From: Candidatus Gastranaerophilales bacterium
Lineage (GTDB): Bacteria; Cyanobacteriota; Vampirovibrionia; Gastranaerophilales; Gastranaerophilaceae
Assembly: GCA_944326475.1 (NCBI GenBank)
Contig: CALVEC010000009.1
Span: 1-64,000, forward strand
Direction of reading: 5' to 3'
Length of the DNA: 64,000 nt
The notes under the pieces are model-generated. The model ran no database searches. It was given only the letters and a program-made list of their open reading frames with translations, and was not told the origin of the DNA. Position numbers and translations under genes: made by a program. Shown here piece after piece: positions 1 through 43,449 of the stretch. The first letter of the stretch is position 1. Each line of letters opens with the position of its first letter.

Positions 1-1479
1 GGTTATACAGTCATCAAAACCGCCCAAGACCTCGACAACATCCGCAATGATTTAGACGGCAAATACATCCTCATGAATGACATCGACCTGTCGTCCTACT
101 CCAATTGGGATCCGATAGGGGATTATGACTCAGGTGCAAGTTTTACGGGCTTGTTGGACGGAAACGGTTATACAATTTCAAACCTGACTATCAACCGACC
201 TGATGAAGATGGCGTCGGATTATTTGTCTTGATAGGAGTTCATACAGATTCTTATGTCGGCAGGGTTCAGAATTTGGGTTTTGAAAATGCGAATATAACG
301 GGAGCTAAAAGCGTTGGTCCGCTGGCAGGATTTAGCGCCGGAACTATCACCAACTGTTACGCTACGGGCAGTATTACCGGAAATAATCAAACCGGCGGAC
401 TTATTGGTGCTATGGGGAATGGTTTAGTTTCTGATTGTTACGCAAAAAGCGATGTTGATGGGTATGAGAAAACAGGCGGGCTTACGGGGATTGTTAACAT
501 GGGAACTGTTACAAACAGTTTTTCAACAGGAGATGTTAACGGCTATAATTACACAGGCGGATTAGTCGGACGTAATCTTTCGGGTACTATATCAAACAGC
601 TATGCAAAAGGTGATGTAGCAGGTGATCAAAATACCGGAGGTTTGATGGGTTGCAGTAGCAGTGGTTCTATATTAAACTGCTATGCAACAGGGGACGTCA
701 GAGGTAATCTTAATACAGGCGGGTTAGCTGGTGAGATTAATGGTGGTAGTTCAACCATATCAAACAGCTATGCACTTGGTCTTGTTCAGGGAGTTACCAA
801 TATTGGGGGATTACTCGGGCAGAATAGTTGGTCTACCATCAAAAACTCTATCTGGAATACCGAAACAACAGGACAAAGCGTTGCAAATGGTTATAGTGAC
901 CATGGAGTTGAAACCAATAATCAAGGTTTAACAACTGCAGAGATGCAAGACCCGAGTAATTGGTCAGGTTGGGATACGAGTGTCTGGGATTTTTCAGAAT
1001 ACCCGCCTAAACTCAAATGGCAGGATGACTTAAAAACACCGATTGACGCTCCTCCGGATCCGAGTCAGCCCGGTGATGAGCCGATTCCGGGTGCAGTTCG
1101 GCTGCAAATCGGCTCTGATTCGAGTTCGACATCTGCAATCTACGTTGACACCTCATTCGACCTCGGCGCGTTCGATGTTGACTTTTCGTCTGCCGACTCC
1201 TGCGCAGCGGCGATTGAGGACATTGACGAGGTATTGTCGCGCATAAACACAAAACGCTCGGAGTTTGGCGCTGTGATTAACCGCTTGTCCTCGATTCTCG
1301 AGTCGCAAACCACGACGATACAGAACTTTACATCGGCAAAATCGACAATCATGGACGCGGATATTGCGAATGAGTCGGCGGATTTTGTGAAGAATCAGAT
1401 TCTCCAGCAGACTTCCTCTGCGCTCCTTGCGCAGTCCCAAAACCTCCACGCGTCGATAGTCTTGTCACTGATAGGGTAG
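1..1479 (+). CDS. Flagellin with GLUG-repeat central domain (5' truncated)
   Basis: The frame is open from base 1, so the flagellin N-terminal D0/D1 part lies outside the window. The last ~90 residues match the flagellin C-terminal D1/D0 helix pair (IDEVLSRINTKRSEFGAVINRL, then MDADIANES..ILQQTSSALLAQSQN), and the LQIGS stretch before it is the usual entry to that domain. The middle is an array of GLUG-type units (GGLxG...NSYAxGDVxG). Unit starts fall at 313, 394, 475, 556, 637 and 718, exactly 81 nt (27 residues) apart, with a last one at 805. GLUG repeats are normally found in large surface adhesins. Here they occupy the surface-exposed variable domain of a filament subunit. Codon use is GC-rich at both ends and AT-richer in the repeats. 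An adhesin alone is unlikely given the clear flagellin C-terminus. Confidence 0.88.
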   Translation, partial: GYTVIKTAQDLDNIRNDLDGKYILMNDIDLSSYSNWDPIGDYDSGASFTGLLDGNGYTISNLTINRPDEDGVGLFVLIGVHTDSYVGRVQNLGFENANITGAKSVGPLAGFSAGTITNCYATGSITGNNQTGGLIGAMGNGLVSDCYAKSDVDGYEKTGGLTGIVNMGTVTNSFSTGDVNGYNYTGGLVGRNLSGTISNSYAKGDVAGDQNTGGLMGCSSSGSILNCYATGDVRGNLNTGGLAGEINGGSSTISNSYALGLVQGVTNIGGLLGQNSWSTIKNSIWNTETTGQSVANGYSDHGVETNNQGLTTAEMQDPSNWSGWDTSVWDFSEYPPKLKWQDDLKTPIDAPPDPSQPGDEPIPGAVRLQIGSDSSSTSAIYVDTSFDLGAFDVDFSSADSCAAAIEDIDEVLSRINTKRSEFGAVINRLSSILESQTTTIQNFTSAKSTIMDADIANESADFVKNQILQQTSSALLAQSQNLHASIVLSLIG

Positions 1480-12289: not shown

Positions 12290-12493
12290 ATGTATATTAT
12301 TGAATTGATTGTAAAACTTCTTAACAAAAAAGAAAAAAAACAGGCTGCCATGCCGCAGACAGAGTATGAGAGATGTGAGCACGTATTTCTTCCGATAGAC
12401 AGTACTAATGAGATTCTTGCCTGTACAAAGTGCGGCTTTGTAATACACAAAAGCGATATAAAAGAGAACACAAACAATCCCTTTAAAAGTTAG
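12290..12493 (+). CDS. Small zinc-ribbon protein
   Basis: About 67 residues starting MYIIELIVKLLNKKEKK. It has an amphipathic N-terminal helix and a single zinc-ribbon-like motif (CEHVFLP ... ILACTKCGFVIHKSD: C/H plus CxxC). Alternative in-frame starts exist at 12263 (ATG) and 12254 (TTG); none has a good ribosome site, so the start is uncertain. It is convergent with the large ATPase gene, overlapping its end by 4 bp. A role is unknown, though zinc ribbons of this kind are common in small nucleic-acid-binding proteins. Confidence 0.55.
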   Translation: MYIIELIVKLLNKKEKKQAAMPQTEYERCEHVFLPIDSTNEILACTKCGFVIHKSDIKENTNNPFKS

Positions 12494-15400
12494 AGTTTTA
12501 TGTCGTTTAACTGACAGTATGCTTTAAATGATGAAAAATCGTTTTGGATTTCAGCTTCTATAGCGGGAATTTCCATATCTTTTATCATAACAAGAGCTTT
12601 TTTATAAGTTTCGACTATCTTTTGGGAGTAGTTATTTTTGTTCTGGGGTTTTTTATGTATCATTTCTTCAAGATATTTTGCATATAACTCATAAAGCATA
12701 ACTTTGTGAAGCTTCATGCCGTAAGTTTTCACGATTAACAGAGCTTTTTCAATATACATTCTTGCTGCTTCCATATCGCCTTTTATCATATATATTTCAG
12801 CTATGAGACGTTTGTAGAGCACCATGAAATAGTAGTTGTTTATTTTGGGGTTTTTCGCAACATCCAGTGCTTTCTGGGTAATATCCAGTGCTTTATCTGT
12901 ACCGTCTGTGACCAATGTTACTTTGGCTATATAATACCAGCACAGAAGTGCGCCGACTGCTATTTTTTCTCTGGCAAATATTGTCACCTGCTCATTAAAA
13001 ATATCAAGAGCTTTAGAGAGGTTATCTTCTTCCTGGAGTACTTTTCCGAGGAATGTTTTTAAAAGATTCTTGATTAGTACATCATTGTAATTGTTAGCAA
13101 AAGTGACGACAGAGAACAGTTCTTCTTTAATATTTGCCCAATCTTTTTTGAGTATTTTGTTCAGAATGTTAATAAAATTCCACTGTGAAATGATTTCCGG
13201 CTCGACAATTTCATTTGCTGTTTTTTGTGAAATTTCTATTAGTATTCCTTCTGATTTTTTGATAATACCAAGCATTGAATATGCTAATGCCTTGGAAAGA
13301 GCTACTCTTAACAGGTAATTTTTATTGGTAATATGGTTTTTAGCAACTATTTCATCAATAAAATTCAATACGTTCAAACATTTTTTATTGCCCTGAATTA
13401 TTAAAGCGTTAGCTACAATCAGATTGCACTCAAGCCACGTCTCATAAATAATACTCATCGGGATATCTTTTGTGGGGATAGATTGCGCTATAGCCTGCTC
13501 TATAATCGGGATTATTTCATTGTTTGCTGTGTTGTATATTTCTTCTGAATTTCCGATACTCAATATGGCGCGCAGTTTTTTGTATTTTATAAGAGCACTT
13601 TCGAGTTTATATTCAGGGTAATCAATGAGTTTTAAAACTGTGTCTACTGTTTCTATTACTCCGTGATAATTGCCTATTGCATCGCAGCTTTTTGATAAAT
13701 AGCCAGCAAGTTCAATGATTTTAGGTTTGTTTCCTAGTTTTACCGCTGTCGAGAGTGAATTTGACAGGTAGTTCATTGCTTCGGATGGTTTGGAGAGATA
13801 TAACAGCTTTCCGAGGCGTTCCTGAATATTTGTTATAACAAGGTTGTTTGTTTCGGGGTTGATTTCCTGTGCTATTTTGAGACACTGTTTCTGAGAAAGC
13901 GCCCAAAGATGTTCATCGCCGAGATAAGCACAGAGTTTAACATTGTCCGTCCATATATTCATTGCAAGAAGTTTTTGGTTCAAATTCTGTGCAACCAGCG
14001 CTTTAAGAGCATTACTGGATAATGTGTAATTGTTTATTACATCGAAAATTCTTTCATTTAACAATGTAAAATCTTCGCTCATTTTTGCTCGTTCGTATAC
14101 AAATTTCCACATCAGGGTATTTTTAAAGGCAAACATATTGTCGTTAAACTGGGTCAAATATGCTGAATTAACAAGCATTTGAATAACATTTCTGAAATCG
14201 TCAAAGCTTATTTTCATAACGTGCTCAAGAAGTTTTATGTTGAACTTGTTGCCCATAATTGCCGCAGTGCAGAGAGTTCTGTGTACTGTCGGAAATTTTT
14301 CTTTTAGTATATTTAGTCTTTGTGTTAAGATTTCAAAAAGATTTTTCGGCAGATTGAGAGCAATAGGGGTGGATTTATAAATGATTTCATCATCTTTTGT
14401 TTCAAATGCACCGTTTTCATTAAGAAGTACGAGAATCTGTTCTATAAAAGCACTGTTTCCTTTTGAATTTTCGTATATTTGTTTGAAAACATCTTCTGGT
14501 ATTGGATTTGCACCGTTCATAAACAGTCTTGTGAGGTTTATTGCGTGTTCATAGGTCAGGTTTGACAAAAATACATCCTGATACTCATTTTCTGCAATTT
14601 TCTCGGAGTAAAAATACCCTTGTGAAATTCTTTTGTCTTTGTATGCAACAATAAGTTTTATATTCTCTGAAAGATAGTCTTCGTTTATAAAATGCATTAA
14701 AAATTCATACGACGCCCCGTCTATCATATCAAAATCGTCTATAACTATAATCAGTTTTTGACGCTGGGATATTTCTAAAATTACTTTTTCAAGCAGCTTA
14801 AAGCTGTATTCTTTGTTCACAAGTATTTCTTCAAAATGAGCTGTCAGAGCTGGATATAAAAAATTGAATAAATCACCTGTTTCAGCGTCTGTTAAGGTTG
14901 GTACAACTTTTTGCAAAAGTTTTTTGGTTTCTTTTTGAAATTCTCCTGACATATTAGAATAATTAGGCAGATTGAAAAAGGTCAAAAACATTTCCTGAAA
15001 TATACCAAACGGGCTTATTTGCGAGTTTGCGCTGCATTCACCCCATAACCAGGCATATTTCAATGGAAGCAGTTCGTTAAACAAATATCTTAAAACAGTG
15101 GATTTTCCGTATCCTTCAACACTGCTCAATCCGATTATCTTTTTGTCGTTACTCTTGACTGCTGCAACCATAAGGTTTTTTGATTTTAGCTGGTCAATTT
15201 CCCTCATGGATTCATTAAGTACTTCCTGAACTGTATTTTCTTGAAGTTCGTTGTCTTCAGAAGTGAGTTCGCCGTTTTCTATTTCTTCCCTAACAGGCGG
15301 AACCACAGGTTCATTTTTTTTTTCTTCTGCTCCTACGGCAGATGCAGCTTGTGCAGGTTTTTGCACTTGCCCGACCTGTTTGGGGTGTGCAGGGGGCACT

Positions 15401-16173
15401 TGCGGAGCGGGTTCCGGCGGGGCCTGTTTTGCCGGCTGTGAAGATTGGTTTATATTGGTTTTTAAATCTGTTTCTCCGTGAAAATATTCGTCATCGTCTG
15501 CTAAGGTGCTTAAATCAAAAAAGTCCGTATCTTCTTCGTATGTTTGTTCCGGTTCTGTCTGGCTTTGAGCGTCTGTTTCAACAGATATATTATCAGAAAA
15601 TTCTTCTTCTTCCTGCTTTTTTATCAAAGCTTCGTAGTTATCGGAATAATTCTCAATTTCGTCTGCTGCTTTTTCTTCCTCGGATTTGTCTTGTGTTTCA
15701 TTGTCCAGCTCAATTTCAGGAAGTTCGTTAGTTATATGTTCAGCAGAATTTTCTATGGGTTCGTCAAAAGAGCCGGCAGATGCTTCAAGTTCAATTTTTT
15801 GTTCTTCAAACATTGAAAACGGTTTGACTTCTTGAATAGACGGCATAAAATCTTCGTTTTCCCGTATGGAGCTGTTTTCTTCAGGTGCTGCCGGAGCGGA
15901 TGTTTCTTCTTGTGCGGTGTTTTGCTGTTCAAAAGCAGCGGTTTTATCAGAAAATACAAAACCGCATTTTCTGCATTTTTCGGCTTTTGGCAAATTTGCG
16001 CTTTTGCATGACGGACAGTATTTAATTAACTGTGTATGACAATGCGTGCAGTACTCTGCTGTGAGCAAATTCAATGATTTACATTCCGGACAAACCGTCT
16101 GCACTTTTGCACCGCAAAATTTACATCTTAAACTATTTGCATCTATTTCTTTTTTGCATCGAATGCAATGCAT
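12490..16173 (-). CDS. Zinc-ribbon / STAND-type ATPase / TPR giant protein
   Basis: This 1227-residue protein has a mosaic build. Residues 1-75 carry six CxxC pairs (CIRC, CKFC, CPEC, CTHC, CPSC, CRKC), which form three zinc-ribbon units. Residues ~80-340 are an acidic, Pro/Gln-rich linker. The ATPase domain follows, with Walker A GLSSVEGYGKST (~345-355) and Walker B KLIIVIDDFDMID (~475-487). It is of the AAA/STAND type found in adenylate cyclase-linked ATPases. The remaining ~550 residues are helical repeats of TPR type (ALDIFNEQVTIFARE, ALDITQKALDVAKNP, ARMYIEKALLIVKTYG). No cyclase, kinase or DNA-binding effector domain is visible. It lies downstream of the ECF-like sigma factor operon. 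The likely role is signal-dependent scaffolding. Confidence 0.75.
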   Translation of the reverse strand: MHCIRCKKEIDANSLRCKFCGAKVQTVCPECKSLNLLTAEYCTHCHTQLIKYCPSCKSANLPKAEKCRKCGFVFSDKTAAFEQQNTAQEETSAPAAPEENSSIRENEDFMPSIQEVKPFSMFEEQKIELEASAGSFDEPIENSAEHITNELPEIELDNETQDKSEEEKAADEIENYSDNYEALIKKQEEEEFSDNISVETDAQSQTEPEQTYEEDTDFFDLSTLADDDEYFHGETDLKTNINQSSQPAKQAPPEPAPQVPPAHPKQVGQVQKPAQAASAVGAEEKKNEPVVPPVREEIENGELTSEDNELQENTVQEVLNESMREIDQLKSKNLMVAAVKSNDKKIIGLSSVEGYGKSTVLRYLFNELLPLKYAWLWGECSANSQISPFGIFQEMFLTFFNLPNYSNMSGEFQKETKKLLQKVVPTLTDAETGDLFNFLYPALTAHFEEILVNKEYSFKLLEKVILEISQRQKLIIVIDDFDMIDGASYEFLMHFINEDYLSENIKLIVAYKDKRISQGYFYSEKIAENEYQDVFLSNLTYEHAINLTRLFMNGANPIPEDVFKQIYENSKGNSAFIEQILVLLNENGAFETKDDEIIYKSTPIALNLPKNLFEILTQRLNILKEKFPTVHRTLCTAAIMGNKFNIKLLEHVMKISFDDFRNVIQMLVNSAYLTQFNDNMFAFKNTLMWKFVYERAKMSEDFTLLNERIFDVINNYTLSSNALKALVAQNLNQKLLAMNIWTDNVKLCAYLGDEHLWALSQKQCLKIAQEINPETNNLVITNIQERLGKLLYLSKPSEAMNYLSNSLSTAVKLGNKPKIIELAGYLSKSCDAIGNYHGVIETVDTVLKLIDYPEYKLESALIKYKKLRAILSIGNSEEIYNTANNEIIPIIEQAIAQSIPTKDIPMSIIYETWLECNLIVANALIIQGNKKCLNVLNFIDEIVAKNHITNKNYLLRVALSKALAYSMLGIIKKSEGILIEISQKTANEIVEPEIISQWNFINILNKILKKDWANIKEELFSVVTFANNYNDVLIKNLLKTFLGKVLQEEDNLSKALDIFNEQVTIFAREKIAVGALLCWYYIAKVTLVTDGTDKALDITQKALDVAKNPKINNYYFMVLYKRLIAEIYMIKGDMEAARMYIEKALLIVKTYGMKLHKVMLYELYAKYLEEMIHKKPQNKNNYSQKIVETYKKALVMIKDMEIPAIEAEIQNDFSSFKAYCQLNDIKL

Positions 16174-16234: not shown

Positions 16235-16846
16235 CTATTTATTAAAATGAGATTTTACGATTTCAGCTATTTCTAATAATCTTTTGCTTACTTCAGACTG
16301 CGAAAGCTGCGTTATTTCTGCAATTTCACGCTGTTTTTTTTCTTTAACGTATCTTAAGAAAAATATTCTTAAGTACTCTCTGTTCGGATTATTTTTGTGA
16401 GCAACCAGTACGATATCCACAACTTTTTGAAGTAAATCTTTTCTGACAATTCTTTCTTCAAAATTGTTTTTCGGATCCGGAACATTGTACAGAAAAACAG
16501 GTTGCGCTTCTGCAACAGGTGTTATCATTTGAACTTGAGGCACTGTTTCATGAACGAATTGCTGCGGCGCCGGTGTCGGATCCATAAGAACTTCATGAGT
16601 CGAAACATATCTGTTTGAATGCCGTCTGATACGTCCGGATGTTCTTAAAACAGTAAGAATTGATGTATTTACGACTTTTGCCAGATAGCTTTCAAAGTTC
16701 TTTATTTCGTTATTGTCAAACAACGTATAAGAACGTTTATATGCTTCGGAACAAAAATCCTCAAACAAATCTTCATTTCCGATATATTTATTATTTAATC
16801 TAACAAGTCTCTCTATAATTGTCCGTTGTTCTTGAATTGTATTCAA
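16235..16846 (-). CDS. ECF-like sigma factor
   Basis: This 203-residue protein resembles extracytoplasmic-function sigma factors. It has a region 2-like N-terminus (residues ~20-75: EDLFEDFCSEAYKRSYTLFD, FESYLAKVVNTSILTVLRTSGR) and a C-terminal region 4-like helix-turn-helix (~140-203: REYLRIFFLRYVKEKKQREIAEITQLSQSEVSKRL). A Pro/Gln-rich linker joins them. It lies 79 bp downstream of a membrane protein with an anti-sigma zinc motif, which is the normal ECF pairing. Region 2 is divergent, so a sigma-like regulator that is not a true sigma factor is possible. Confidence 0.7.
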   Translation of the reverse strand: MNTIQEQRTIIERLVRLNNKYIGNEDLFEDFCSEAYKRSYTLFDNNEIKNFESYLAKVVNTSILTVLRTSGRIRRHSNRYVSTHEVLMDPTPAPQQFVHETVPQVQMITPVAEAQPVFLYNVPDPKNNFEERIVRKDLLQKVVDIVLVAHKNNPNREYLRIFFLRYVKEKKQREIAEITQLSQSEVSKRLLEIAEIVKSHFNK

Positions 16847-16925
16847 TTTCCCTAACCCATCTGTTTATAACACAGGGACTACCTGTTTATTTTATAATAA
16901 CACAGATTTTAAAATTAGAAAAATT

Positions 16926-19856
16926 TTAAAAATTAATCATTAAAGAAAGGTTGTAATCGCCCTTAACATCTTTTATATTCGGGGCATTGATGTATTTTAA
17001 CGTTTCTTTAATACTTCGTAATACTACGTTATCAATCTGCTCCGAACCGCTGGAATCAAGAACCTGTAAATTCTTAATTTCATTGTTTTTAGTAACCTGG
17101 AAATTAAGATGAATCCTGTTGTTATAAGCAAATTCCGTTGTGTTTGCCAGGTCATTTTGCAGATTTATCTGGAGATTTTTGCCTGCAACCTGCAGATAGT
17201 TTTTGAATGCATCGTTTTGCGCCAGCTTGTCGCTTACATTCCACGATATTTTTGTAATCGTTAACGCTGTAGGTTGTTCGGAAAAGACGTTGGTCATTGA
17301 TTTGTTGATGTCCTGAGGCACAGGAGGTTCTTCTGCTGTTTCTTCCGATTTTGCACCAAAATCAAATAACGCACCGCCGTCTGTTGTGTTTTCATCGCCA
17401 TCAGAAACAGCCGGAGCCGATTTTCCGAATTTCATAAAATAAGTGGTTGCACCTCCTGCAAGCAAGATGAGAAAGACAAACAGTGATACGGCAAGTTTTT
17501 TTGTTGTGTTTACTGCTGATTTTACAACCGGAGGTTCTTCTATGGTAATTTGATTTTCGCTGTCTCCGGGTTGTTTGCTTTCATCGTAAAGTGTGTTAAT
17601 TGCGCCATTGTCAGACGGTTGTGAAAGTTTTTGGGCAATTTGTTTCGGAACAGAAACAGTTTCTTCTTCTGTGTTTTCTGTAGAAACAGGTGTGTCATTT
17701 TCCATAAGCATTGCCATCAAATCATCATCCATTAAATTTTGAATCTCGGGGTCAACTGCATCTGTTGCATCCGTGGTTTGATTCGATGTTTCTTCGTCTG
17801 CAATCTGCGCGGTTTGTTCTTCCTGAGTAATATTTTGTGTTTCTTTAATTACTGAACTGTCATCATCATCATCACTGGCGTCTAAAAGGTTTTTTAAATC
17901 TTCATCCCAAAAAGCTTGCATCTCAGGACTCATTTCTTCTTCCTGATTATTTTGCGTTTCTGCGATATCCGTTTTTATAGCGGTATTTTCTGTTTGATTA
18001 TCTTCTTCAGTGATATTTTCCTGATTGTCTTGAGGGGGTATTTCTGAATCCTGCGGCAGATTTTCCTGTTCTGTTATACTGCTAATCAGGTCTGATTCTG
18101 TTAAAGAATCAGATTCAACGGTTTTATTTTCCTGCTCATTCAACATTTCTGCGGGTGATACTTCTTCATTTATTAGTAAATCTTCTGATTTATCCAACTG
18201 TATTTCATCTATGCTTTCATCTTCTGTCAGCAGCTCCGGTTCATCGCCCAATAGAAGCAAATGTTCATTTACGGGTTCTTCTTCAAGAAGTTTTTCAGTA
18301 TCTGAAATGTTGGAATTTAGAGTATCATCCGTTGCTTCTAAAATTTCTTCACCTTCATTTGAGAGCAAATCAAGATTAATTTCTTCGTTTTCTTCCAATA
18401 TTTCAGGCTCTTTCTCATTTTCAACGTCAACGGACGAAGAAATTTCGGGCTCTATTTCCGCAGATTTGGAAATATTTTCATTCCTATTTTCTGTATCAAT
18501 GAGCTCGAAATCTTCGGCGTTGGGAATATCGCCGGGGTTATTGTCATTTTGCTGCGGAAAGGATTCGGCAGTATTGCCGGAATCCTCCAGTGATGAAGCT
18601 GTATTAAAATCAACTTTCTCGTCAGCCGCATCTTCTTCGTCAGCAAAATCAAGCAAAAAGTCGTCTCCTTTTGCTTCTGCTTCTTGCGAATTGTCTGTTA
18701 GCGGAGATATTTCTTCATCGAGACTTCCAATACCTGTCTCGTTTGAATCAATCTCTGTCAATACATTTTCCTGTTCTTTATCCGTCTCAACAATCGGTAA
18801 AGAATTGTCATTACCGTCTGTAGAGATTTCTTGCGTCTCCATTTCTGTTTCAGGTAATTCTACCCCGGCTGTTTCTTCTGAATTAAGTATATTTGCTGAA
18901 CCAAGTTCCAGTAAAGTTTCTTGTGTAATCGGGTCAACACCGCTTTCGTCATCGTCTTCATATTCAAGTAAAAACGGTTTTTCTTCATTATCGATATTGT
19001 TTGACTCAATCGGCAATTCTGTTGCTGTTTCTTCATTTTGTATTTCAAAATCCGCCGTAACCGTATTGCCAAGGATAAGTTCTTCTTCATCTTCATCCGG
19101 CAAAAATACAGGCTGTGCTTCGGGAAGACTGTATGCTCTTGCCAGTGCGCCCGTCAAAATATCAAGTGTTTGGTCATTTAGTAAATCAGGATATTTATTT
19201 AGCTGTTTTACTACATTGTCAAATTCATTCATCTCTGACAATTTTTCCCGGCAAAACGAACATTTCATTAAATGCTGTACAAAGAATACTTTTTCGCTGT
19301 CGGATATTTCTCCGTCAAGAAATGCGATAGCAAGTTCTTCAATTTTTGCGTGCATATCTTTTGAGAAAATAAGTTCTTTTTTCTCAATTTTACTTATGGC
19401 ATTTTTTAATTCGCTTACCGGTTTTAAGATGTTTATATCATATTCGTAATATTCAGTATTGCTATGAACTTCAGGCAGTTCAGAGGCTTCAATAAAACCG
19501 ACAGGTTCTATATTTTCTGCGTCTTGCGTCATTCTTACAACTAAATAAATTTCAGGATTTACAAAGAATTTCTCATGTGATTTTGGTACGAAAAAAGTGT
19601 TTCCGTCAAAAATAACACGTACGTCAACCCTGATATCATCTGAGTATAAATCGGCAATTTCTACAATTTCATCCAGAGACGATATTTTAAATAAACTGTT
19701 TTTATGCTTTAGCTTTAAATCCCCGTCATCCAGCAAATCACTGACAGACATAGCAGCGGCGCTTAATACTAAAACTCTTTTTCTGATTTCTTCAGAAGAA
19801 AGTTTTATTGCCAAATTTTTTGCGTTATCCAGTACAAGCTTATTCACTTTTTTCAT
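16926..19856 (-). CDS. Membrane anti-sigma-like protein with TonB-like C-terminal domain
   Basis: This 976-residue protein is made of unrelated parts. An N-terminal globular domain (~1-160) resembles the cyanobacterial DUF1822 type (tentative). An anti-sigma zinc motif follows, H195-x3-C199-x2-C202 (HLMKCSFC). Then come ~570 highly acidic, Ser/Thr/Asn-rich residues, probably disordered. One membrane helix lies at ~788-807 (AVSLFVFLILLAGGATTYF). The outer part ends in a ~100-residue TonB/TolA-like C-terminal domain (RIHLNFQVTKNNEIKNLQVLDSSG, IDNVVLRSIKETLKYI). The layout puts the sigma-binding head in the cytoplasm and the TonB-like tail in the periplasm. Its sigma partner gene lies 79 bp downstream. 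Confidence 0.7.
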   Translation of the reverse strand: MKKVNKLVLDNAKNLAIKLSSEEIRKRVLVLSAAAMSVSDLLDDGDLKLKHKNSLFKISSLDEIVEIADLYSDDIRVDVRVIFDGNTFFVPKSHEKFFVNPEIYLVVRMTQDAENIEPVGFIEASELPEVHSNTEYYEYDINILKPVSELKNAISKIEKKELIFSKDMHAKIEELAIAFLDGEISDSEKVFFVQHLMKCSFCREKLSEMNEFDNVVKQLNKYPDLLNDQTLDILTGALARAYSLPEAQPVFLPDEDEEELILGNTVTADFEIQNEETATELPIESNNIDNEEKPFLLEYEDDDESGVDPITQETLLELGSANILNSEETAGVELPETEMETQEISTDGNDNSLPIVETDKEQENVLTEIDSNETGIGSLDEEISPLTDNSQEAEAKGDDFLLDFADEEDAADEKVDFNTASSLEDSGNTAESFPQQNDNNPGDIPNAEDFELIDTENRNENISKSAEIEPEISSSVDVENEKEPEILEENEEINLDLLSNEGEEILEATDDTLNSNISDTEKLLEEEPVNEHLLLLGDEPELLTEDESIDEIQLDKSEDLLINEEVSPAEMLNEQENKTVESDSLTESDLISSITEQENLPQDSEIPPQDNQENITEEDNQTENTAIKTDIAETQNNQEEEMSPEMQAFWDEDLKNLLDASDDDDDSSVIKETQNITQEEQTAQIADEETSNQTTDATDAVDPEIQNLMDDDLMAMLMENDTPVSTENTEEETVSVPKQIAQKLSQPSDNGAINTLYDESKQPGDSENQITIEEPPVVKSAVNTTKKLAVSLFVFLILLAGGATTYFMKFGKSAPAVSDGDENTTDGGALFDFGAKSEETAEEPPVPQDINKSMTNVFSEQPTALTITKISWNVSDKLAQNDAFKNYLQVAGKNLQINLQNDLANTTEFAYNNRIHLNFQVTKNNEIKNLQVLDSSGSEQIDNVVLRSIKETLKYINAPNIKDVKGDYNLSLMINF

Positions 19857-19890
19857 TTCTTAATTCTCTCCTCTTTGATTTGAGAGCCGA

Positions 19891-20208
19891 TTAAACTTCT
19901 CTCCATTCCTTGACTTCAGGCGGTGTCGGAAATTCGGATTCCATTTTTTTCAGGATTAACCTGAAAAATGGTATTTTGCTTTCTCTGTAAATCTGCGAAT
20001 CCGTTTTCTCCTGGCGAGTTTCGGCTGTATTCTTTTTTTTGCTTACGTAAATTGTATCGTCTTTAAGACTTTTCTTTCTATCCTCCGGTTTTCCGGTCAC
20101 AGCGTTCAAAAACGGGTGCTTATTCTTAGGGGCTTCATTTATATTCCGCTCCAGGCAATACAGTTTTTCAAACGCTTCTAAAATTGCAAGTGATTTATCT
20201 AGTTCCAT
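19891..20208 (-). CDS. Small protein of unknown function, first gene of the anti-sigma operon
   Basis: The 105-residue, charged protein starts with a helix (ELDKSLAILEAFEKLYCLERNINEAP) and has a Lys-rich middle and a C-terminal PTPPEVKEW stretch. It has no signal peptide, membrane helix or known motif. It is 34 bp upstream of the anti-sigma/TonB-like gene on the same strand. Co-transcription with that gene and the ECF-like sigma gene is likely, so it may belong to the same signalling unit. I do not recognise a family. Confidence 0.6.
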   Translation of the reverse strand: MELDKSLAILEAFEKLYCLERNINEAPKNKHPFLNAVTGKPEDRKKSLKDDTIYVSKKKNTAETRQEKTDSQIYRESKIPFFRLILKKMESEFPTPPEVKEWREV

Positions 20209-20290
20209 ACTTTTTCCCTCATTTTTAAGCGAAGCACGGTTAATGTAAAAATCACTCTATTAACTTAGATAACATTTCTGAAAAAAATAT

Positions 20291-20318
20291 TCCAAAAATG
20301 AAAAAAAGGTGTTATAAT
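20291..20318 (+). promoter_or_regulatory. Promoter of the 132-residue membrane protein
   Basis: The extended -10 box TGTTATAAT lies at 20310-20318. A weak -35-like TTCCAA (20291-20296) sits 16 bp before TATAAT. The transcript would have a leader of about 125 nt before the ATG at 20451. That leader contains a small AAATCC/GGGTTT-type hairpin near 20379-20395. Confidence 0.55.
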
Positions 20319-20450
20319 GTAAAGAAATGTATCATATTAATGGTTAAAAAACGGTCTCTTAGCAATAAAAAATCCTTATAGGGTTTAATGCTATTGTAGT
20401 GAAAGTAACAAATTCATCATGTGTAAATATTAAGCAAAAGGAGTCTTATT

Positions 20451-20849
20451 ATGTCAGTCAACCTTTCATCGGGAATTGTACCTTTATCACCGGAAACAAT
20501 TTCAAGACCGCCTAAGTATACTCAAACAAATGCTCAGGCGCCTACTGCGAGTACACCAATAAACGAAGAAGCGCCAAAGAAGAAAAACAGCCACTGGTTT
20601 TTAAAAACCGTAGGCGCAATCGTTGTTGTCGCTGCTGCACTTGGTTTGGGCAGAAAATATATTCCTGCATTGAAAAATATTAATCTTTCAGAAGCAGCCG
20701 GCGAAGGTGCAAAATGGTACCAAAAAGGTCTTACATACATTGCTCAGGCAGGTGAATATATTAACACCAAAGCTGCCAACAGTTGGGAATGGTTAAAAGC
20801 ATTGCCTTCAAAAATTGGTATAGGCAAAAAAGGCGGAGCTGCGGAATAA
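20451..20849 (+). CDS. Small membrane protein of unknown function
   Basis: The 132-residue protein has a polar Pro/Thr-rich N-terminus (1-40) and a Lys-flanked membrane helix (~46-65: WFLKTVGAIVVVAAALGLG). The C-terminal half is amphipathic and rich in Ala, Lys and Trp. There is a strong AAAGGAG ribosome site, and the gene has its own promoter and terminator. No known domain is visible. It resembles other small lineage-specific hydrophobic proteins of this window (51923-52162, 26747-27184) in general style only. Confidence 0.65.
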   Translation: MSVNLSSGIVPLSPETISRPPKYTQTNAQAPTASTPINEEAPKKKNSHWFLKTVGAIVVVAAALGLGRKYIPALKNINLSEAAGEGAKWYQKGLTYIAQAGEYINTKAANSWEWLKALPSKIGIGKKGGAAE

Positions 20850-42112: not shown

Positions 42113-42778
42113 TTAATCCAATTTCCCTTCATCAAGCAGACTTTGAACCTTTTCAACAATGATTTTATGTATTTCATACACGCCTAAAGTTCCGTCTATA
42201 CTGACAAAGTTGTAATCCTTTTTCATTTGTTCATACTCGGTCAGGCATTTGTCCTGGTATATGGTGAAACTTTTATAAAAGTCCGAGCTTAAACCTATAT
42301 CCCTGCCCGATTCCCAGTAATCAAGCCCTGTTGTGCCGATAACTCTCTTTAGCAAAACATCAACCGGCATGTCAAGATAGAATACCAAATCCGGCTCCGG
42401 AGCAAAGTCATAAAGTTTTTCGACCCACTCAAAATCCAGCCCCCGCACGACGTCACGGGCGAATGCCGTGTATTTGTATCTGTCCATAAGTACAACGAAT
42501 CCGGCATTTAATGCGGGAATAATAGTGTTTTCAAGTCTGTCGGCAAAATCAGCCGCGTATAAAAGGCTGAAAGTTGTTGCGTTTAGCAAATTTCTGTCTT
42601 TTGCATCATCAATTACATTTGCAATAAGTCTCGATGTTTTCCATTCGCTGACCATTGCGCCGTAGCTCTTTTCTTCTATCCACTGCTTTAAAAGCTCTAT
42701 CTGGGTAGATTTTCCGGAGCCGTCGGTTCCTTCAATAACTATTAATAATCCGTTATGTTCATTATTTTTGTTTTTCAT
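42113..42778 (-). CDS. Thymidylate-kinase-like protein, second copy
   Basis: The 221-residue P-loop kinase has Walker A IEGTDGSGKSTQIELLKQW (~14-32) and the DRYKYTAFARD motif (~95-105) that binds the nucleotide in dTMP kinases. The normal REPGGT segment of Tmk is replaced by SEWKTS. It is a close relative of the gene just upstream (42778-43449), whose stop codon overlaps its start by 1 bp (TAATG). Tandem copies imply a heteromer or two specificities. dTMP kinase is the nearest family, but substrate is unproven. Confidence 0.75.
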   Translation of the reverse strand: MKNKNNEHNGLLIVIEGTDGSGKSTQIELLKQWIEEKSYGAMVSEWKTSRLIANVIDDAKDRNLLNATTFSLLYAADFADRLENTIIPALNAGFVVLMDRYKYTAFARDVVRGLDFEWVEKLYDFAPEPDLVFYLDMPVDVLLKRVIGTTGLDYWESGRDIGLSSDFYKSFTIYQDKCLTEYEQMKKDYNFVSIDGTLGVYEIHKIIVEKVQSLLDEGKLD

Positions 42779-43449
42779 TACAGAGTTATTCCTTTTTTGG
42801 CAAGAATATCAATAACAAGTTTTCTCATTTCAACCTGTTTTGCGTGAATGGATTGTTTGGCGTCAATAGAGACAAGTCCGTATTCTTCCACCATTTTTTC
42901 ATATTCGTTATTCACACGGTTTTGAAAAATCACGTAACTTTTATACGGGTTGTTGCTCAATTTTAAATCCATACCGGCTTCATAAAAACCGGGCGTTCTG
43001 TTTGAACATATGCGTTCAAGTGAAATTTCCGCAGATATTGAATAATACAAAGCCAAATCAGGCTTTATTGCAAATCCGTACATATTTCTTACCCAGTCTC
43101 TGTCAACACCGCGGGCGACATCTCTTGCAAAGGCGGTGTAAGCATATCTGTCTGCCAGAACAATAAATCCTGCTTTCATTGCCGGTATAATTACCTGTTC
43201 AAGTCTGTCTGCAAAATCTACCGCATGCAGCAGGCTGAATGTTCTCGGGCTTAAAAGATTTTTTTTCTTTGCACGTTTTGTTGTCTGGGATATCAAATCC
43301 GATGAATTCCATTCTGTATAAATGACATCAAGATTTTTTGATTTTAACCAGTCCTTTAATATGCCGATTTGTGTGGATTTTCCGGAACCGTCAATCCCTT
43401 CTACGCAAATCAATGTTCCCGGCAGTCCATGTTCTTTTAGAAATCTCAC
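42778..43449 (-). CDS. Thymidylate-kinase-like protein, first copy
   Basis: The 223-residue P-loop kinase has Walker A VEGIDGSGKSTQIGILKDW (~16-34), LHAVDFADRLEQVIIPAM, and DRYAYTAFARDVARG. As in its neighbour, the REPGGT segment of ordinary Tmk is replaced (TEWNSS). A GFIVLADRYAYTAF/GFVVLMDRYKYTAF comparison shows the two genes are tandem duplicates that have diverged. It is first in the pair, and a terminator lies upstream. ThyX in the window makes the dTMP such enzymes would phosphorylate. Confidence 0.75.
   Translation of the reverse strand: MRFLKEHGLPGTLICVEGIDGSGKSTQIGILKDWLKSKNLDVIYTEWNSSDLISQTTKRAKKKNLLSPRTFSLLHAVDFADRLEQVIIPAMKAGFIVLADRYAYTAFARDVARGVDRDWVRNMYGFAIKPDLALYYSISAEISLERICSNRTPGFYEAGMDLKLSNNPYKSYVIFQNRVNNEYEKMVEEYGLVSIDAKQSIHAKQVEMRKLVIDILAKKGITL

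Follow-up and report, generated by a model that had tools for sequence, protein, structure and literature searches.

An order-wide predicted anti-sigma protein of Gastranaerophilales with DUF1822-type and TonB/TolA-type domains, encoded beside an ECF sigma factor

A sigma-factor operon kept across the order

The window analysed here, the whole 64,000-nucleotide stretch of contig CALVEC010000009.1 from a Candidatus Gastranaerophilales bacterium (assembly GCA_944326475.1), contains a minus-strand operon in which a 976-residue membrane-anchored protein, predicted to be an anti-sigma factor, is encoded just ahead of an extracytoplasmic function (ECF) sigma factor. The host genome measures 2.14 Mb, and its assembly is 98.65% complete. 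A preliminary description of this DNA, made from the letters alone, had reported three open reading frames (ORFs) of 105, 976 and 203 residues, and had read the second as a single polypeptide, encoded near an ECF-like sigma gene, in which an anti-sigma zinc motif is combined with an acidic linker, a membrane helix and a TonB-like domain. The ORFs, all on the minus strand, their coordinates and the joining of these parts were all recovered in our analysis, which computed domains, fold models, gene order, order-wide conservation and a promoter motif. The operon is laid out as follows.

20267-20293, minus strand: ECF-type promoter GGAATATTTTTTTCAGAAATGTTATCT, 58 nucleotides upstream of the first gene, a candidate autoregulatory promoter
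19891-20208, minus strand: ORF of 105 residues, without a family assignment, which opens the operon in the window's genus
16926-19856, minus strand: 976-residue membrane-anchored predicted anti-sigma protein (ORF call, domain matches, order-wide homologues)
16235-16846, minus strand: 203-residue ECF sigma factor with regions 2 and 4 only and a TTG start (TIGR02937, SigW match)
12490-16173, minus strand: 1227-residue double-zinc-ribbon/AAA (STAND-like)/TPR protein (domain matches)

The fusion recurs in related genomes. With residues 1-249 as query, a homologue was found in 37 of the 39 genomes of Gastranaerophilales relatives, and a profile search of 289 genomes of the class placed the protein in almost every member of the order; three family members were listed without a homologue, and matches outside the order were weak only. 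A single-protein scan of genome contigs returned six loci, of which four carry the title Candidatus Gastranaerophilales and two that of an uncultured bacterium, and searches of plasmids and of viral contigs gave no match. Since the architecture persists throughout the order, at one full-length homologue per genome, it is not a product of chance. (The order-level profile also matches shorter proteins, which are probably ordinary TonB-like ones.) The observation is order-wide, and hence more interesting than a single odd fusion.

The 203-residue protein passes the NCBIfam sigma70-ECF model TIGR02937 (54.8 bits, cut-off 42.9), has Pfam matches to Sigma70_r2 and r4_2, and matches SigW (5wuq_A) with an E-value of 2e-5. 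The presence of regions 2 and 4 only, the score above the family cut-off and the GGAA-type promoter before its own operon place it among the ECF (group 4) sigma factors. In nearly all relatives where the contig permits the test, the sigma gene is the next same-strand gene after the anti-sigma gene; the exceptions are L037, which clearly lacks it, and L063, in which none was recovered. The 7-mer EAQPVFL is common to residues 246-252 of the anti-sigma protein and residues 113-119 of the sigma factor in the window's species. We rejected it as a case of mimicry between the two proteins, as sister species keep the 7-mer (or nearly so) only in the anti-sigma protein and do not keep the exact match in the sigma factor.

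Domains of the 976-residue protein

The window protein's own Pfam matches lie just under the cut-offs, and domain assignment was therefore worked from its relatives. Four folded parts were recognized, a DUF1822-type domain, an anti-sigma domain, a membrane helix and a TonB/TolA-type domain, with a long linker between the second and the third.

19374-19853, minus strand: residues 2-161, DUF1822-type domain, N-terminal half of PF08852 (relatives' Pfam matches, profile-profile comparison, AlphaFold2 model)
19173-19361, minus strand: residues 166-228, anti-sigma domain, zf-HC2 and RsiW-like (RsiW match, structural match)
19251-19274, minus strand: zinc motif H195-x3-C199-x2-C202, intact in the window protein
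17496-19139, minus strand: residues 240-787, acidic low-complexity linker, predicted cytoplasmic (composition)
17433-17495, minus strand: residues 788-808, single transmembrane helix (sole hydrophobic segment)
16929-17273, minus strand: residues 862-976, TonB/TolA-fold domain, predicted periplasmic (Pfam in relatives, AlphaFold2, VIA)

The anti-sigma domain is matched by Pfam zf-HC2 over residues 172-203 of the window protein (E 3.8e-4, just under the cut-off), and the excised N-terminal region scores 23 bits against the cut-off of 22.2. Its best sequence match among solved structures is RsiW (PDB 5wuq, E 4.4e-5), and the VIA structural matches have Z-scores of 6.5 to 5wuq_C and 6.0 to RslA (3hug). 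These matches bear out the zinc-finger anti-sigma assignment suggested for residues 185-210, and H195, C199 and C202 are exactly where they had been placed. Set against class I anti-sigma domains (ASDI), the domain has the RsiW/ChrR-like helical fold and the optional HxxxCxxC motif, and lacks the N-terminal position.

The linker that follows, residues 240-787, is composed of 30% Asp plus Glu and 3% Lys plus Arg, and its length in relatives varies between about 50 and 1300 residues. The membrane helix is preceded by Lys on its N-terminal side, which predicts an orientation with the N-terminus inside and the C-terminus outside. Beyond the helix, Pfam matches TonB_C to residues 915-968 (E 1.5e-3) and also gives TonB_2 at an E-value of 7.7e-3, both slightly short of their cut-offs; in relatives TonB_2 is matched by 32 of 33 sequences, at best with an E-value of 2.5e-9, and TonB_C by 27 of 33. 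The AlphaFold2 model of the C-terminal domain has a predicted local distance difference test (pLDDT) score of 92.6, and VIA matches it to domain III of TolA (1tol, Z 9.4), TolA (2x9a, Z 8.3) and Helicobacter pylori TonB (Z 8.0). The first 23 rows of structural matches are all TolA, TonB or TonB homologues; Foldseek alone is weak, with a best E-value of 0.038. As modelled, the domain has the TonB/TolA superfamily fold and is about equally close to TolA domain III and to TonB, in keeping with the relationship to TonB first proposed for it.

The preliminary description had gone further, and had suggested that sensing of an outer-membrane receptor could pass to the sigma factor within one polypeptide. 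In such a model this domain, acting as a TonB, would contact TonB-dependent receptors of the outer membrane, possibly powered by ExbBD. The TonB/TolA fold speaks for such a reading, as do the ExbD genes, present in two copies in the window's genome and in at least two in each relative. The receptors themselves are scarce: neither a Plug domain nor a TonB-receptor barrel was found in the window's genome, and a TonB-dependent receptor occurs in only 8 of the 39 relatives and in none of the other 31, the anti-sigma gene being present in 37 of the 39. Moreover, the same receptor-free genome has a TonB-ExbB-ExbD-ExbD operon separate from the anti-sigma operon (positions 8682-11585 of L113, G000:C10:52000-66000). 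A conserved histidine of the membrane helix couples TonB and TolA to ExbB and TolQ. The hydrophobic segment of the separate TonB-like protein contains a histidine, and the anti-sigma membrane helix has no conserved histidine across relatives. Given the lack of Plug and barrel, the separate operon and the helix without its histidine, we rejected receptor sensing for the window's genome, and as a general account we hold it to be very improbable. The C-terminal domain is built like TonB/TolA and shows no sign of energisation or of contact with TonB-dependent receptors.

The structural matches raise a second possibility, namely that the C-terminal domain behaves like TolA-III and spans to Pal-like or other envelope proteins by way of ExbBD, reporting envelope constriction or integrity to the sigma factor. 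TolA-III is indeed the best match (Z 9.4), and OmpA-domain genes together with ExbBD occur in nearly all relatives. However, the TolA and TonB matches are close (9.4 versus 8.0), the coupling histidine is missing, no TolB/Pal partner was identified, and only about 50 periplasmic residues lie between the helix and the domain, all of which makes us regard this possibility as unlikely.

At the other end of the chain, residues 1-160 had been suggested as a DUF1822 domain, and it is the relatives that identify it: PF08852 matches 33 of 37 N-domain sequences at E <= 0.1 (best E 1.4e-14), the window's own copy, and its genome, being without a DUF1822 match. Profile-profile comparison with cyanobacterial DUF1822 covers the same stretch, the N-terminal half only, with 97% probability and an E-value of 1.1e-10. 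The AlphaFold2 model (pLDDT 90) is matched by VIA to Eco15I (Z 8.9), NhoI (Z 8.2) and DpnI (Z 8.1), and its top structural matches are almost exclusively restriction endonucleases and Holliday-junction resolvases of the PD-(D/E)XK superfamily. Because the Foldseek E-values are weak (0.05 at best), the model gives a strong hint of a restriction-endonuclease-like PD-(D/E)XK fold and stops short of proof. The residues D69-x8-D78-x-R80 occupy the expected position of the PD-(D/E)XK motif and are kept in the alignment (Asp69 in 36 of 37, Asp78 in 32 and Arg80 in 30); P91, K92 and H94 are also conserved. In 30 of the 37 sequences, the window's R80 included, arginine replaces the catalytic lysine of (D/E)XK, and nuclease activity is therefore not expected. 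The cyanobacterial DUF1822 proteins comprise one group with AD...ECR at the motif position and another without the first aspartate.

The genomic setting of the cyanobacterial proteins points to a role for the domain. Most of 19 DUF1822 loci of photosynthetic cyanobacteria have a same-strand gene of about 220-410 residues immediately upstream, and the upstream neighbours tested often carry sigma-70 region 2/4 matches. A long group of these neighbours matches the window's sigma factor in profile comparison (95%, E 2.9e-8), and a short group does so much more weakly. At some loci the upstream gene has no sigma match (one such neighbour is RecN), and one locus showed no sigma-like gene on the same strand, so that the linkage is frequent and not universal. 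An earlier survey had already noted ECF sigma genes beside DUF1822 genes, whose products were there called TPR proteins (PMC8195603). Because its cyanobacterial genes commonly sit directly downstream of sigma-like genes, DUF1822 is a plausible sigma-partner domain. A bolder extension, less likely than not, is that DUF1822 serves widely in cyanobacteria to control sigma factors and is built on an inactivated PD-(D/E)XK fold. Gastranaerophilales would have fused it to anti-sigma and TolA/TonB-like domains, so that a single chain relays a signal, mechanical or by contact, from the outer envelope to the sigma factor.

The N-terminal domain could also be the sensor, responding to a nucleic acid or a metabolite, in which case the linker, helix and C-terminal domain would only anchor or position the protein. 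DUF1822 is the part held in common with cyanobacterial proteins encoded beside sigma-like genes, its nuclease-like fold keeps D69, D78, R80, P91, K92 and H94, and the linker varies enormously in length, all of which would suit such cytoplasmic control. Yet across the order the C-terminal domain is conserved at least as well as the N-terminal one (mean column identity 45% versus 37%), an argument for a role beyond anchoring, and we think cytoplasmic control improbable.

The promoter and the neighbouring genes

The consensus of the promoter upstream of the operon is GGAATATTTTT-N8-TGTNATCT, with the conserved form GGAATA-15 nt-GTNATCT. A de novo spaced-word search of the operon upstream regions found GGAAT...ATCT in 10 of 32 genomes, against a maximum of 3-4 in shuffles. 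With at most three mismatches near the gene start, GGAATAWTTTT-N8-TGTNATCT was found in 24 of 37 genomes, 13 of them perfect, versus 0.3% of shuffled regions, and the window's site is the only perfect match in its whole genome. The site is intact (0-3 mismatches) where the sigma factor is at least one third identical to that of the window, with one or two exceptions, and is degraded where the sigma factor diverges most (Spearman -0.52, p 0.006, with the sister species left out); L037, which has no sigma gene, also has no promoter site. As the promoter precedes the operon and degrades with the divergence of the sigma factor, autoregulation is the simplest reading, and the operon is probably autoregulated by its linked sigma factor. 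A genome scan at three mismatches gave 38 sites versus 20 for a reversed-pattern control, only a small surplus. It yielded no convincing second target in the genome, as nearly all other candidate sites checked lie inside coding sequence.

Close to the promoter, two further features and a family-specific element were noted.

20318-20323, minus strand: TTTACA element a short way upstream of the -35, which relatives often have as TTTGTTACA-N4-TTTACA
20451-20849, plus strand: divergent gene for a 132-residue protein with one hydrophobic segment, flanking the anti-sigma gene

In 16 of 24 genomes TTTACA lies no more than 40 nucleotides upstream of the -35 (in shuffles 1.3 genomes on average and 5 at most), and it may be the site of a second regulator or an UP-like element. 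L042, L046 and L048 belong to one sister family with a divergent sigma factor; the GGAAT promoter was not seen upstream of their anti-sigma gene, and an element resembling TCATTYATWTTAATGATA, an inverted repeat, is common to these upstream regions. Divergent genes of about 110-160 residues, similar to the 132-residue one, adjoin the anti-sigma gene in most family members and are possibly part of the system.

The 105-residue ORF had been counted as a member of the signalling unit. It is a real gene, since the differences between species fall mostly on the third positions of codons, as expected of coding sequence. It is also kept in all four members of the window's genus and found nowhere else among the relatives compared, its product has no Pfam or NCBIfam match, and we class it as an accessory first gene, not a core part of the system. 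The gene for the 1227-residue protein begins about 60 bases after the sigma gene and is the operon's third gene in most of the family; its homologue follows the sigma gene immediately in about 20 relatives, and other genes replace it elsewhere in the order. This protein has no obvious effector domain. Elsewhere in the window lie two further points of note.

73-1479, plus strand: ORF for a flagellin-like protein in which an unusual region of GLUG repeats precedes a flagellin C-terminal domain
42113-43449, minus strand: two tandem, nearly abutting genes of the thymidylate kinase family

A proposed envelope switch and its relation to known systems

We consider it likely that the operon encodes an order-specific ECF sigma/anti-sigma switch of Gastranaerophilales, in which the membrane protein holds the sigma factor, the periplasmic TonB/TolA-type domain senses the envelope, and the free sigma factor amplifies the operon. 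The 976-residue protein would sit in the inner membrane with its N-terminus in the cytoplasm, where the RsiW-like domain would hold the 203-residue sigma factor inactive at the membrane, probably helped by the adjoining DUF1822 domain with its likely catalytically dead nuclease-like fold. The periplasmic domain would bind an envelope component, which may be peptidoglycan, a lipoprotein or an outer-membrane protein, and would not be a TonB-dependent receptor. Gain, loss or change of that contact would then free the sigma factor, either via proteolysis or via a conformational change passed along the chain from the envelope inwards. The free sigma factor would read GGAATATTTTT-N8-TGTNATCT and amplify the operon, including the third, zinc-ribbon/AAA/TPR gene, and possibly act on targets beyond it. 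The switch thus proposed probably reports on the cell envelope.

Several observations weigh against this scheme. The anti-sigma domain lies within the chain, after a DUF1822 domain of about 160 residues, whereas class I domains are N-terminal, and its zinc ligands are absent in many relatives. Zinc is hence not essential to the system, and the loss argues against zinc as the sensor; anti-sigma function nevertheless remains compatible with it, since about 44% of class I anti-sigma domains lacked the motif in a large survey (PMC7406223). The correlation between promoter and sigma factor is confounded by phylogeny, and with nine Sigma70_r2 matches in the genome another sigma factor could read the promoter. 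As stringent matches elsewhere fall mostly inside coding sequence, the regulon may also be the operon alone. The missing zinc ligands, together with L037, which keeps the gene with neither an adjacent sigma gene nor the promoter, would suit a degenerate anti-sigma protein, a scaffold that has ceased to inhibit; the tight linkage to the sigma gene and the conserved promoter in most relatives make this most improbable.

If the envelope switch holds, a near-universal route from envelope to transcription, with a concrete promoter, would be at hand in a gut bacterial order whose regulation is largely unstudied. It would also offer a function, that of sigma-factor partner, for DUF1822, which has had none so far and is present in many of the cyanobacterial genomes searched. 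The unit had been put forward as a possibly undescribed system. Our literature search found no description of the combination, nor of an anti-sigma factor whose outward part is a TonB/TolA-type domain, and to that extent the claim stands; its classification as a new system gives way to the comparisons below.

Like SigW-RsiW and other class I (zinc) pairs, the operon pairs an ECF sigma gene with that of a protein which spans the membrane once and carries an HxxxCxxC anti-sigma domain, has a (candidate) autoregulatory GGAA-type promoter, and finds its best solved-structure match in RsiW. Unlike those pairs, it has the anti-sigma gene first, the anti-sigma domain internal behind DUF1822, a very long acidic linker and a TonB/TolA-fold periplasmic domain. 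With FecI-FecR-FecA it shares an ECF sigma factor, a membrane anti-sigma factor and a periplasmic signalling domain; it differs in that the genome has no TonB-dependent receptor, no FecR family match was found in Pfam or NCBIfam, and the anti-sigma protein itself contains the TonB-like fold. The energy transducers TonB and TolA have the same C-terminal fold, a single helix with the N-terminus inside and a periplasmic C-terminus, whereas here the conserved coupling histidine is lacking, the cytoplasmic part carries sigma-control domains, and a separate TonB accompanies ExbBD. The cyanobacterial sigma-DUF1822 pairs likewise encode a DUF1822 protein beside a sigma factor; there it is a separate protein of about 300-500 residues encoded downstream of the sigma gene, the reverse of the gene order found here, and is not noted to be fused to anti-sigma, membrane or TonB-like parts (PMC8195603). 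The TonB-receptor mechanism is unsupported, and the system is best regarded as a variant ECF sigma/anti-sigma module.

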